This document shows positions 5,119-21,905 of a stretch of DNA of 37,213 nucleotides, in pieces; position 1 is the stretch's first letter; each line of letters opens with the position of its first letter. The stretch is from the IMG/VR virus record IMGVR_UViG_3300037882_000281, positions 1-37,213 of that record. One strand, 5' to 3'. This stretch comes from a virus. A program made the translations under genes and the position numbers. Below the pieces are notes generated by a model. That model was not told the DNA's origin. It made no database searches and saw nothing but the letters and a program-made list of their open reading frames with translations.

Positions 5119-5149
5119 GGATCTCAGTGTAACCGCTAGGAGAACTAAA

Positions 5150-5374
5150 TTGAAGAATGTACCGTACACAACGAAGACTGGAGTTCGGATGGGAATCCGT
5201 TACAACGAGTCACCAAAGCCCATGCCTATTGACGATAGCGACATGCTCGCCATTCAAAGCTGGTTTATTTGCGACAAAGGCTGGCACAAAAAGCGCACCA
5301 TTGAAACCATTGTTATGCGTATTTCAGCTGGTGTTTTAGTGCTTGTTATTTTAGGAATGTGGATAACCAAATGA
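5150..5374 (+). CDS. Small single-pass membrane protein, first gene of early operon
   Basis: 74 aa from TTG at 5150, chosen because GCTAGGAG lies 7 nt upstream and the promoter -10 box covers the alternative ATG at 5117. The N-terminal half is soluble and begins MKNVPYTTKTGVRMGIRY. One hydrophobic helix at the C-terminus (about residues 57-72, ISAGVLVLVILGMWI) is preceded by a basic stretch KKRT, predicting a membrane anchor with the bulk in the cytoplasm. It overlaps the exonuclease start by 4 bp (ATGA). I recognise this only as a conserved-looking early phage protein; the function is unknown. Confidence 0.7.
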   Translation: MKNVPYTTKTGVRMGIRYNESPKPMPIDDSDMLAIQSWFICDKGWHKKRTIETIVMRISAGVLVLVILGMWITK

Positions 5375-11770: not shown

Positions 11771-12504
11771 GAAAGATATTTATAGCCACGCCGATGTACG
11801 GGGGCATGTGCGTGGGCGGTTACACCATGGGGCTGCTGAACTGTGTCCAGGAGTTTATGAAGCACGGGATCCTGATGTATTACGGCTATATGATGAACGA
11901 ATCCCTGATTACCCGTGCTAGAAATACACTAACCTATGACTTTCTAGTCACTGATGCTACGCACCTGATGTTTATTGATGCCGACATTAGCTTTAATCCA
12001 GAGAGCATTACCTCGATGCTGGACGCCGACAAGGACATTATCTGCGGCCTGTATCCTAAGAAAGAGATTAACTGGAAGACCATAGCCGAGGCCGTAAAGT
12101 CTGGGGTGGAGTACCAAAACCTGCCCCTGCATACAGGTACGTTTGTGGTTAATTTGATAGACAACGCCAAAGAAAAACAGGGTTTAGTCAATGAGCCAAT
12201 GGAGATAGCCAACGGCGGGACTGGGTTTATGCTGATTAAACGGGAAGTATTCGAGTCTTTACGGGACAAAGTACCGACCTATACCAACGACATGATCCAG
12301 ATCGTGGACGTTAACCCAGAGAAGCGGGTAATCCATGAGTTCTTTACCACTAGCATTGACGAGGAAACCAATCGCCTGTTATCTGAGGACTACCATTTTT
12401 GTAAGCTGGCACGGAACAACGGCTTTCAAGTCTGGGCTGCGCCATGGGTCAATCTAAGCCATGCGGGGACGTATAACTTCAACGGCGTCTTGCAGCGGGC
12501 GTGA
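11755..12504 (+). CDS. Second GT-A-type glycosyltransferase-like protein
   Basis: 249 aa. It starts with KIFIATPMYGGMCVGGY, a strand and nucleotide-binding loop typical of GT-A folds, and has a classic DxD motif in MFIDADISF (D75, D77). Later segments IANGGTGFMLIKREVFE and LSEDYHFCKLARNNGF match the catalytic and acceptor regions of phage glycosyltransferase-like proteins. It is sequence-distinct from the upstream enzyme, so the pair probably adds two different sugars or acts in sequence. Substrates unknown. Confidence 0.85.
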   Translation: MENQVRKIFIATPMYGGMCVGGYTMGLLNCVQEFMKHGILMYYGYMMNESLITRARNTLTYDFLVTDATHLMFIDADISFNPESITSMLDADKDIICGLYPKKEINWKTIAEAVKSGVEYQNLPLHTGTFVVNLIDNAKEKQGLVNEPMEIANGGTGFMLIKREVFESLRDKVPTYTNDMIQIVDVNPEKRVIHEFFTTSIDEETNRLLSEDYHFCKLARNNGFQVWAAPWVNLSHAGTYNFNGVLQRA

Positions 12505-12791
12505 TCTATCGGAATAAGAAACTGCTGGAGCTGGTACGCCAGTCTCCATGCCAGACCTGTGGAAATCAGGACGGAACCGTGGTGGCTGCGCACTCCAACC
12601 AGCTGCGGGACGGTAAGGGTAGAGGAATCAAGGCACATGATTATCGCATTGCAGCATTGTGTTACCGCTGCCACATGGAGCTGGATCAGGGAACCAAGAT
12701 GACTAAGGAAGAACGGGCAGACTCCTGGGATGAGGCACACCGCGCTACGATAGGCTGGCTATTCGAAAACGGTCATATTGACATAAAATAG
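12501..12791 (+). CDS. HNH/DUF1364-like zinc nuclease
   Basis: 96 aa, GTG 12501 in GTGA overlap. The pattern CQTCG (17-21), VVAAHSNQLRDGKG, then ALCYRCHMELDQG, with two Cys pairs and several histidines, resembles the DUF1364/Ref-type phage nuclease-like fold. In that group (for example P1 Ref) the zinc-bound HNH core cuts DNA, in P1 in a RecA-dependent way. A role in phage recombination fits the rest of the operon. It is the last gene before the long untranslated region. Confidence 0.75.
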   Translation: MIYRNKKLLELVRQSPCQTCGNQDGTVVAAHSNQLRDGKGRGIKAHDYRIAALCYRCHMELDQGTKMTKEERADSWDEAHRATIGWLFENGHIDIK

Positions 12792-12849
12792 AGACGGCTG
12801 CCAGCAACGTAAACATCGCTTCGCATTCGCTGTATACAGGTGTTGTTGG

Positions 12850-12908
12850 TAGCCCTTGATAGCCCTTGACACAACATATTGACGCATTTCTTATTCGTGT
12901 GCTATATT
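12850..12908 (+). promoter_or_regulatory. Strong sigma70-like promoter(s) with upstream tandem repeat
   Basis: The best promoter has -35 TTGACG (12879-12884), an 18-bp spacer and -10 TATATT (12903-12908). A second, overlapping one has TTGACA (12866-12871), 17 bp and TCTTAT. Just upstream the 10-mer TAGCCCTTGA is repeated perfectly in tandem (12850-12859 and 12860-12869), covering the -35 of the second promoter; it may be a regulator site. Predicted start near 12915. Confidence 0.65.
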
Positions 12909-12914
12909 TAGTAC

Positions 12915-13034
12915 ACCAGTCCTTACTGGCGCACATTTTTTCCTCTCCTAGCAGACTGGTTCTTGTGCAAAGCAAGCCCTCGGTGAACACACTCACCCCA
13001 AAACCCCTAGCCTAAAAACTAGGGGTTTTCCTTT
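12915..13034 (+). ncRNA. Candidate small RNA with anti-Shine-Dalgarno loop
   Basis: An interval of about 115-120 nt bounded by a strong promoter and an intrinsic terminator, with no plus-strand ORF. It can form CCAGT/ACTGG (12916-12929) or, alternatively, ACCAGTC/GACTGGT (12915-12921 with 12954-12960). A pyrimidine-rich unpaired segment contains TCTCCTAGCAG (12944-12954). This is exactly complementary (10-11 nt) to the ribosome sites in front of the minus-strand genes starting at 19404, 20044 and 21356. Alternative: read on the minus strand the same bases form CTGCTAGGAG plus ATG (12936) of a 63-codon ORF, but no minus-strand promoter is visible. Confidence 0.45.
13000..13034 (+). terminator. 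Bidirectional rho-independent terminator
   Basis: Perfect 11-bp stem AAAACCCCTAG (13000-13010) with CTAGGGGTTTT (13019-13029), 8-nt loop, followed by CCTTTT. The stem is flanked by T-rich tracts on both strands, so it can work in either direction. It closes the candidate small RNA and separates it from the structured region downstream. Confidence 0.85.
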
Positions 13035-13079
13035 TGTAAATAATTCTTGCAAAACTATTTCTGTTCGGTTAACCTAATC

Positions 13080-13392
13080 GGGCTAGGAGTTTTATGGAAA
13101 AAATGTGATGGCATTCTTGCCTTCATCTTTTCTGTAAGACTCCCAAGCTACACCACTCAGGTCGGATCTTAAACGACAGCTGCGTGGGAAGAACTCCTAC
13201 TGTGGGATAAGACTTGAAACAGGAGAAAGGGTGGCGAAGCCAGAGCCCTAAGTCGAACGTCTGGCGGGTGCTGTGGCTCCGAAAAGCAACAGTTGAAGGC
13301 ATCTAGGATAGGCTAGGTGCGTTCACCAAAAAGCAACCGTCAATCAGAGTTACTGTAGTAAGGAGTTACTGGGGGGTGGCATCCCCATTTTT
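13080..13392 (+). ncRNA. Candidate structured RNA (about 310 nt), unassigned
   Basis: No ORF longer than a few codons. Many consistent helices can be drawn: 13086-13094 with 13135-13143 (9 bp, one G-U) enclosing further pairing; CCCA and AGCT arms (13142-13149 with 13178-13188) around GTCG/CGAC; AGGG-GGC-gaa-GCC-CCCT (13228-13249) inside GACTT/AAGTC; CTGT-GCT/AGC-ACAG (13271-13292); and GGTG-cgtt-CACC (13316-13327). It ends in an intrinsic terminator. A weak TTGCAA-17-TAACCT promoter starts at 13047. It could be an independent RNA, or an attenuator or antiterminator leader for the ParB-helicase-primase operon. It does not match any RNA family I know. Confidence 0.45.
13371..13392 (+). terminator. 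Probable intrinsic terminator upstream of ParB-like gene
   Basis: GGGG (13372-13375) pairs with CCCC (13383-13386), with G-T and T-A pairs inside and a GGC loop, followed by ATTTTT. It stands 6 bases before the AAGGAG ribosome site of the next gene, a position typical of an attenuator rather than a gene end. Confidence 0.5.
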
Positions 13393-13409: not shown

Positions 13410-14270
13410 GTGAAGAAGCTAAACATACTAACCATCCGCACTGACGGCGGTACACAACCACGGTTAGAGCTGGATCAAGAGTTAGTCAAAGACTATGCGG
13501 AAAAGATGCGTGATGGCGCTGTATTTCCACCGATTGTAGTATTCAATGATGGTTCTGAGAATTGGCTGGCAGACGGATTTACCCGTTACTTTGCCACCAA
13601 AGCAAACGGCGGCACAAGCATTGAAGCAGAAGTCCGTCAGGGCACACTGCGTGAAGCCAAGATGTACGCACGAAAGGCAAACAACAAACAAGGCAGGCCG
13701 CTTACCAGCAACGACATTCGTGTCATTCTGCTGGATATGTTTGCTGACGAGGAATACGGCACATGGTCAAACAATAAGATTGCCAAAGAGTTAGACCTTT
13801 CCAGCATGACAATCGGTAGGGCTCGTGTCGCATACCAAGAGCAGACCAAAGCACCGAAGCAGCCAGTAAGTTACACGGACAAGCATGGCAACCAAAAGAC
13901 CATGAACACCGAGAACATTGGTAAGAAAAAGAAGGAAAGGCCAACCACCAAGCCCGATCACAGCACTGGCGCATTAGATCCGTCTTCTGAGCTGACTCAA
14001 AAGGTCAATGAGTTATCCACCACAGTAACCACACTGGCAGAGGAAAACACGGCTCTACGAGATCAAATTGCCGTTGGTCAATGGGATGCCTCCGAGATAG
14101 AAAAGGTAGATGTTGAAGAAACACTTAGAGAGCTGCGTGAGCAAATCCGAGTGCTGGAGATTGAAAACAAATCATTGCGTGAAAGCAGGGATATGTATCA
14201 GAACCGCAACGCAGAGTTAATGCGCTCACTTAAATCAGCCAATGCCAAGTTAAAGAAACTAGAGGGTTAA
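13410..14270 (+). CDS. ParB-like protein with helix-turn-helix and coiled coil
   Basis: 286 aa, GTG 13410 behind AAGGAG. Residues about 10-80 have the ParB/Spo0J N-terminal fold, with the nucleotide/DNA-contact motif LADGFTRYFA (D55, G56, R59) in the place of the usual DGxRR. A helix-turn-helix follows (NKIAKELDLSSMTIGRARVAYQ... region, about 122-143), then a lysine-rich linker. A long coiled coil (about 195-285) contains LRELREQIRVLEIENKSLRE. It leads the helicase-primase operon. The likely role is sequence-specific DNA binding in replication initiation, partition or transcription control. No ParA partner is seen here. Confidence 0.85.
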   Translation: MKKLNILTIRTDGGTQPRLELDQELVKDYAEKMRDGAVFPPIVVFNDGSENWLADGFTRYFATKANGGTSIEAEVRQGTLREAKMYARKANNKQGRPLTSNDIRVILLDMFADEEYGTWSNNKIAKELDLSSMTIGRARVAYQEQTKAPKQPVSYTDKHGNQKTMNTENIGKKKKERPTTKPDHSTGALDPSSELTQKVNELSTTVTTLAEENTALRDQIAVGQWDASEIEKVDVEETLRELREQIRVLEIENKSLRESRDMYQNRNAELMRSLKSANAKLKKLEG

Positions 14271-16668: not shown

Positions 16669-16686
16669 TTTACTGCTAGGTAAATC

Positions 16687-19404: not shown

Positions 19405-19468
19405 ATCAATCTCCTAGCAGTTAAATGATTACCGAATGGTAATCCCCATGCCCTCAATCAAGGGCATG
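19405..19468 (-). promoter_or_regulatory. Two-hairpin leader with conserved ribosome site
   Basis: Reading on the minus strand: hairpin CATGCCCT/AGGGCATG (19468-19447), hairpin GATTACC/GGTAATC (19444-19427), ATTTAA, then CTGCTAGGAG (19420-19411) and ATG 6 nt later. The order and the GATTAYC hairpin are repeated at 21363-21422. CTGCTAGGAGA is complementary to the candidate small RNA at 12944-12954. It may be a translation-control leader. Confidence 0.5.
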
Positions 19469-20044: not shown

Positions 20045-20070
20045 GTTTAACTCCTAGCAGTTTGTCAAAG

Positions 20071-21356: not shown

Positions 21357-21422
21357 TTGAATCTCCTAGCAGTTAATGATTATCAAGTGATAATCCACAA
21401 ACCCACGACTGGCATGGGCTTG
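21357..21422 (-). promoter_or_regulatory. Two-hairpin leader with conserved ribosome site, second copy
   Basis: On the minus strand: CAAGCCCA/TGGGTTTG hairpin (21422-21398, one mismatch), GATTATC/GATAATC hairpin (21395-21378), ATTAA, CTGCTAGGAG (21372-21363), six bases, ATG. The same order as at 19411-19468, with covarying stem bases (GATTACC/GGTAATC there). This points to selection for structure, probably for translation control. Confidence 0.5.
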
Positions 21423-21830: not shown

Positions 21831-21905
21831 CTCCTAGTAGGTGGTTAGTGTTGCTCTCATGTAATGAGAGATTACATTTTCTCGAATTATTGGGAATCGT
21901 GTCAA
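21831..21905 (-). promoter_or_regulatory. Promoter and leader of the minus-strand block
   Basis: Perfect -35 TTGACA (21905-21900 on the minus strand), 18-bp spacer, -10 GAAAAT (21881-21876). A second TTGACA lies 14 bp farther upstream. The transcript would begin near a hairpin CTCTCAT/ATGAGAG and lead into CTACTAGGAG and ATG 21824. This is the only clear promoter for the 5-kb block. Confidence 0.55.

Follow-up and report, generated by a model that had tools for sequence, protein, structure and literature searches.

A conserved small RNA of freshwater phages predicted to mask the ribosome sites of many unrelated phage genes

The antisense RNAs known from phages either silence a single phage gene or interfere with the host. 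The c4 antisense RNA of P1/P7, which pairs through loops, and the sar RNA of P22 are described, in the part of PMC12197685 that treats them, as blocking the translation of a phage mRNA by pairing in the region of its ribosome site. The same part of that article describes two trans-acting phage small RNAs, VpdS (phage VP882), with host and phage mRNAs as targets, and PreS (phage lambda), with the host dnaN mRNA as target; these descriptions contain no ribosome-site word that is reiterated across dozens of phage gene families. The article also describes prophage anti-small-RNA decoys, AgvB among them, which mimic the targets of another small RNA, in the case of AgvB one of the host. One factor that does act on many phage start regions is a protein: RegA of T4, which has a loose, A+U-rich target and, on ~30 phage mRNAs, competes with the ribosome for the start region (PMC3014915).

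We analyzed a stretch of viral DNA of 37,213 nucleotides (all of the IMG/VR record IMGVR_UViG_3300037882_000281; hereafter the window), a segment of which, as judged by comparison with related phages, very probably encodes a trans-acting antisense small RNA that masks the Shine-Dalgarno sites of a phage regulon. Whereas c4 and sar act on one gene (ant), this one RNA matches the sites of many unrelated genes; it is neither beside nor antisense to a single target, that is, its exact targets in the window are 6–9 kb away and on the other strand, and no sequence relation to c4 or sar came to light, the small RNA having no match in Rfam. The RNA is most likely an RNA counterpart of T4 RegA, a comparison of how the two work only: both are one factor for many phage start regions (here 61 sequence families across phages, with three exact and two near sites in the window), but the factor here, predicted to be a non-coding RNA that would recognize an exact 8-nt word, is not a member of the RegA protein family. 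Unlike AgvB, which decoys a host small RNA, the regulator and its candidate decoy adjoin in one phage cassette. We found no description of this small-RNA family in the open-licence literature.

The predicted transcript (~120 nt; 12915–13034, plus strand) is composed of a 5′ hairpin, a seed hairpin, a third hairpin and a terminator. The promoter, TTGACG-18-TATATT, occupies 12879–12908 on the plus strand (TTGACG at 12879, TATATT ending at 12908), and the intrinsic terminator occupies 13000–13036 with an 11-pair stem at 13000–13029; the two elements from which the original prediction started are therefore both in place. The 5′ hairpin (CCAGT/ACTGG, 12916–12929) is found in the fold of the window's RNA and in those of its homologues. 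It is followed by the seed hairpin (12931–12968), identified from homologue folds, in which the stem GCACA/TGTGC carries an anti-Shine-Dalgarno loop. This loop contains the pyrimidine-rich segment CTCCTAGCAG (12945–12954) and, within it, the 8-nt seed CCTAGCAG (12947–12954), the best-kept word of the small RNA when homologues are compared. The sequence 12915–13034 folds better than 200 of 200 shuffles (z −4.1). The computed accessibility of the full 8-nt seed is low; its outer bases lie in a small apical stem and its inner part stays in the loop. Neither a tRNA nor any Rfam family at the gathering score (RF02932 included) was found in 12915–13034, and promoter-like and terminator-like matches in the region, counted in this single window, do not exceed the shuffled expectation.

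In the window, the word CTGCTAGGAG stands on the minus strand 6 nt ahead of the ATG of three genes whose products are of unknown function: gene 19404 (152 aa; site at 19411–19420; a protein family of 20 with the site), gene 20044 (162 aa; site at 20051–20060; a family of 7) and gene 21356 (62 aa; site at 21363–21372; a family of 4). These are the three 10-nt exact complements that had been predicted at these starts. The two further matches that had been noted, each with one mismatch to the full complement, are likewise present: CTACTAGGAG before gene 21824 (131 aa; 21831–21840, minus strand), the orthologue of which in L005 has the exact CTGCTAGGAG, and CCGCTAGGAG before the first early gene (TTG start at 5150; 5133–5142, plus strand), the orthologues of which carry TTAACTGCTAGGAG...ATG. 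The target word was not found at the plus-strand packaging genes of the window. When all 7-mers of the window's RNA are scanned, the best matches to start regions fall at the seed. When the 66 start regions are ranked by duplex energy, 19404 and 21356 take the top two places, and 20044, with the remaining exact site, shares third place. In this calculation, which the original prediction had suggested as a check, the four best start regions compared with shuffled loops give p ~0.06, which is suggestive for one genome. Given that the energy test in the window is only suggestive, it is the comparison with relatives that decides for a small RNA. As a separate observation, local hairpins precede target sites on the minus strand at 21372–21400 (GATTATCACTTGATAATC) and 19420–19450 (GATTACCATTCGGTAATC); the hairpin and ribosome site look as if they had been duplicated as a cassette.

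Relatives were gathered by protein scans with the ParB-like protein (13410–14270) and the HNH protein (12501–12791), which identified more than 100 phage contigs; in a search among isolated phages, no nucleotide relatives of the DNA were found. In many of the contigs the segment from the HNH gene to the ParB-like gene aligns by blastn with 12845–13340 of the window, and the conspicuous features of this alignment are the promoter, CCTAGCAG, CTTGTGCAA-GCAAGCCC and the terminator. The promoter elements of the relatives keep the −35 as TTGAC and the −10 as TATATTTAGT or TACATTTAGT. Diverged copies, located with a covariance model, lie either immediately downstream of the HNH gene or upstream of ParB, and the most diverged retain little beyond the promoter, a hairpin-borne CCTAGCAG and the terminator. 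A pattern-based finder returned 118 loci, redundant and with a few chance matches outside the family, that reduce to 57 distinct sequences; across these related phage contigs the promoter, the 8-nt loop CCTAGCAG and the terminator are kept between the HNH and ParB-like genes while nearly all other sequence diverges. A family of freshwater phages carries the small RNA. A genome scan with the ParB alignment for a prophage copy, which might have identified the host, returned only distant ParB relatives.

The structure is conserved along with the elements that bound it. Folds of 51 distinct copies have the four-hairpin layout in common, and in 47 of them the seed is enclosed by a stem of at least four pairs. 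In an alignment made without reference to structure, five pairs of the terminator stem are changed on both sides in relatives; the arms of the 5′ hairpin change in concert (GTCAG/CTGAC, ACCAAG/CTTGGT, GCCAA/TTGGC, GCCGG/CCGGC); and inspection of the folds identifies compensatory changes in all hairpins. Conservation in related phages, which the original prediction had named as a check, is observed for promoter, loop, hairpins and terminator. The small RNA, as a predicted transcript, has a promoter and a terminator of its own without a conserved coding frame, and it exposes a conserved, loop-borne seed complementary to targets that are encoded elsewhere.

In contigs with the RNA, CTGCTAGGAG recurs as a ribosome site. 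Over all loci, CYGCTAGGA precedes a start at tight spacing in 188 distinct proteins of 61 sequence families, and in 147 of the 188 the start codon follows GGAG by 5, 6 or 7 nt. The carriers include, in several relatives, the ParB-like gene or an orthologue of the exonuclease-like gene 5359. In 25 RNA-bearing loci, CTGCT stands ahead of AGGAG and an ATG in 52 of 247 cases; the next word does so 6 times. We then examined co-occurrence in 58 ParB-anchored loci: the site is present in 30 of the 38 with the seed upstream of ParB and in 2 of the 20 without it (Fisher 5.5e-7), so that the site kept without the loop, a pattern that would speak against a small RNA, is confined to these two. One of the two, L042, has a variant loop, TTTAGCAG. 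Eight seed-bearing loci have no site in the sequence stretch examined, and seven whole contigs without the small RNA (G014–G020) contain no copy of CYGCTAGGAG. In the reverse direction, a search of the whole collection from the ribosome word returns mostly single chance copies: 16 of 16 contigs with one copy of AACTGCTAGGAG before an ATG have no detectable small RNA, and two of the three checked contigs with four copies carry it; this indicates that single copies mean nothing and that clusters do. We rejected the possibility that CTGCTAGGAG is a normal ribosome site of the host, for it occurs 0–2 times per genome in 40 of 41 bacterial genomes. One bacterial genome has 22 copies, most of which belong to an interspersed repeat that contains GCAGGCTCTTGCCTGCTAGGAGGAGC (L292–L304, all in this genome) and is unrelated to the phage RNA.

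A second RNA lies immediately downstream. Its promoter, TTGCAA-17-TAACCT (13047–13075, plus strand), was read from the sequence, and its inferred extent is 13082–13391 on the plus strand, so that its predicted 5′ end begins with GCTAGGAG, the complement of the seed; the occurrence of this word at 13082 had been pointed out in the original prediction. A second promoter (TTGCA-N-TA...T) follows the small RNA in 45 of the 57 distinct loci, and in 40 of these 45 GCTAGG lies within 40 nt of its −10, in most loci exactly 6 nt after it and hence at the predicted 5′ end. The second RNA has no apparent conserved reading frame. In L034 and L038 the variant seed CTTAGCGG faces CCGCTATGA in the second RNA, with one mismatch left. 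The target word therefore occupies a prominent place in this RNA and is co-conserved with the seed; the second RNA is most likely a decoy that would titrate the small RNA.

The body of the second RNA matches Rfam RF02932, Betaproteobacteria-1 RNA (13151–13269, plus strand; 100.3 bits). RF02932 occurs in the second RNAs of the window's wider clade and is absent from those of other clades; it is also found without the small RNA, rarely, in bacterial genomes related to Variovorax with no small RNA nearby. This distribution suggests that RF02932 probably existed earlier and gained the 5′ target word afterwards. Of 301 genomes of one bacterial family, 5 contain it, and in one of these, from Variovorax, a ParB relative lies nearby. 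The start of the second RNA (13086–13143) is a long near-perfect hairpin, AGGAGTTTTATGGAAAAAATGTGATGGC...CATCTTTTCTGTAAGACTCC, the sequence of which varies strongly among relatives while its flanks are conserved.

In the mechanism that we propose, the second hairpin of the ~120-nt small RNA would hold the 8-nt seed CCUAGCAG exposed in its loop, and the seed would pair in trans with CUGCUAGG, which overlaps the Shine-Dalgarno sequence CUGCUAGGAG 5–7 nt ahead of the start codon. The seed would thus cover the Shine-Dalgarno AGG and five bases upstream, and ribosome loading would be blocked on a whole set of the phage's own, mostly non-homologous, genes; the second RNA, starting with the target word, would titrate the small RNA. 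We infer transcription, direct pairing in the cell, repression, the decoy role, the timing in infection and the use of a chaperone from these patterns. Pairing over a Shine-Dalgarno AGG close to the start codon normally blocks the 30S subunit, and translational silencing is the most likely reading of a seed in this position. The main argument for it is that CTGCT, a word that plays no part in ordinary ribosome binding, has become fixed before unrelated genes essentially only in RNA-bearing phages. An effect of the opposite sign, in which pairing opens or protects the leaders (activation), or a reversal of roles, with the small RNA as the molecule that its targets and the second RNA capture, is in our judgment unlikely: local hairpins do precede several target leaders, the target word at the start of the second RNA is consistent with capture, and the sign of regulation is not readable from the sequence, but in most cases the pairing covers the AGG at 5–7 nt from the start codon.

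Pairing between seed and targets, on which silencing would depend, is evidenced by their natural co-variation. In phages with the loop CCTAGCAG, 114 of 116 distinct sites are CTGCTAGG sites (CTGC) and two are CCGC; in phages with the loop CCTAGCGG, 9 of 11 distinct sites are CCGCTAGG sites (CCGC) and two are CTGC. The association of loop and site is significant on distinct sites (Fisher 1.7e-10, with sites within a clade treated as independent). On a quick ParB tree the loop change arose more than once: the CCTAGCGG loop is found in L023 and L049, which are closest, among relatives with a known loop, to L020 with CCTAGCAG, and separately in L027, which is closest to L017, also with CCTAGCAG. 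The strong switch of targets is mainly that of one clade (L023, L049 and L022); L027 is mixed, with one CTGC and one CCGC site, both of which a G-U pair would tolerate, and no switched ribosome sites were seen in L089, L034 and L038. The conserved part of the pairing is short, with a computed duplex energy for CCUAGCAG/CUGCUAGG of −12.3 kcal/mol over 8 nt; the doubly changed pair has −13.8 kcal/mol, and an A-type seed on a C-type site has −9.6 kcal/mol. In the pairing that flanks the core, a phage's own RNA is better than swapped RNAs (p 0.0005 and 0.0065). Compensatory change between seed and targets, which the original prediction had named as a check, is thus found, most strongly in one clade. 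The same data bear on whether CTGCTAGGAG might be the site of a phage or host RNA- or DNA-binding protein, copies of which the RNAs carry without any RNA-RNA pairing. There is precedent for one protein at many phage start regions (T4 RegA; PMC3014915), and the second RNA carries the motif in the sense orientation; however, what the small RNA always has is the complement, placed in a hairpin loop while the rest of the RNA diverges, the seed and its targets co-vary at a position that pairs, and a DNA site would need neither the fixed distance to the start codon nor the loop, so we consider a protein site very unlikely.

The minus strand might instead be the functional one, with CTGCTAGGAG at 12945–12954 serving as another ribosome site for a small gene starting at 12936; in the window the same word is followed after 8 nt by an ATG and a frame of 63 codons. 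This frame is not conserved, however: it has 13 codons in the close relative L002 and mostly 5–30 elsewhere, its start codon is varied or absent in relatives, it has no Pfam or PHROGs match, and the promoter, hairpins and terminator with their compensatory changes are all on the plus strand. Translation of the frame, which had been recognized as an outcome that would count against a small RNA, is refuted as a general explanation by this comparison, leaving the minus-strand gene highly improbable. Chance, that is, an intergenic promoter-terminator pair with a common Shine-Dalgarno complement, has a negligible probability, for although promoter- and terminator-like matches do not exceed the shuffled expectation and the 16 single-copy contigs have chance copies of AACTGCTAGGAG before an ATG without the RNA, it is contradicted by conservation, co-occurrence and co-variation. 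These three lines support what had been proposed, a small RNA with a loop predicted to mask the ribosome sites of a group of genes, and the support is far stronger than the window by itself could provide.

The seed has a second carrier. Directly before its terminator, the minus-strand target operon has a 3′-terminal hairpin, TTTAC-CTAGCA-GTAAA (TTTACCTAGCAGTAAA; 16669–16684, minus strand), that carries the anti-site CCTAGCAG and is kept in roughly a dozen contigs belonging to the window's clade. We tentatively suggest, at somewhat less than even probability, a switch composed entirely of RNA, in which the seed silences the regulon, the second RNA acts as the decoy and the 3′ end of the operon repeats the seed as feedback. 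Under such a switch, the members of the regulon could conceivably be interchangeable, each enrolled by carrying CTGCTAGGAG in its ribosome site; a gene could then enter or drop out of the regulon through exchange of its 12-nt leader. The data point to a single small RNA over a broad, modular regulon of the phage's own genes. If so, many unknown small genes of these freshwater phages share a common regulatory tag, the fixation of the pentamer CTGCT, outside the Shine-Dalgarno core, before unrelated genes is explained, a role is suggested for the orphan Rfam family RF02932, and a naturally evolved switch with one RNA for many genes, easy to test, is at hand.

The two loci with the variant loop CTTAGCGG (L034 and L038) may use a different word. 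They are without CYGCTAGGAG sites; AAGGGGCA recurs before starts in all 14 of its copies, and the loop of the small RNA's 5′ hairpin in these loci, TCCCCTTG, could pair with it.
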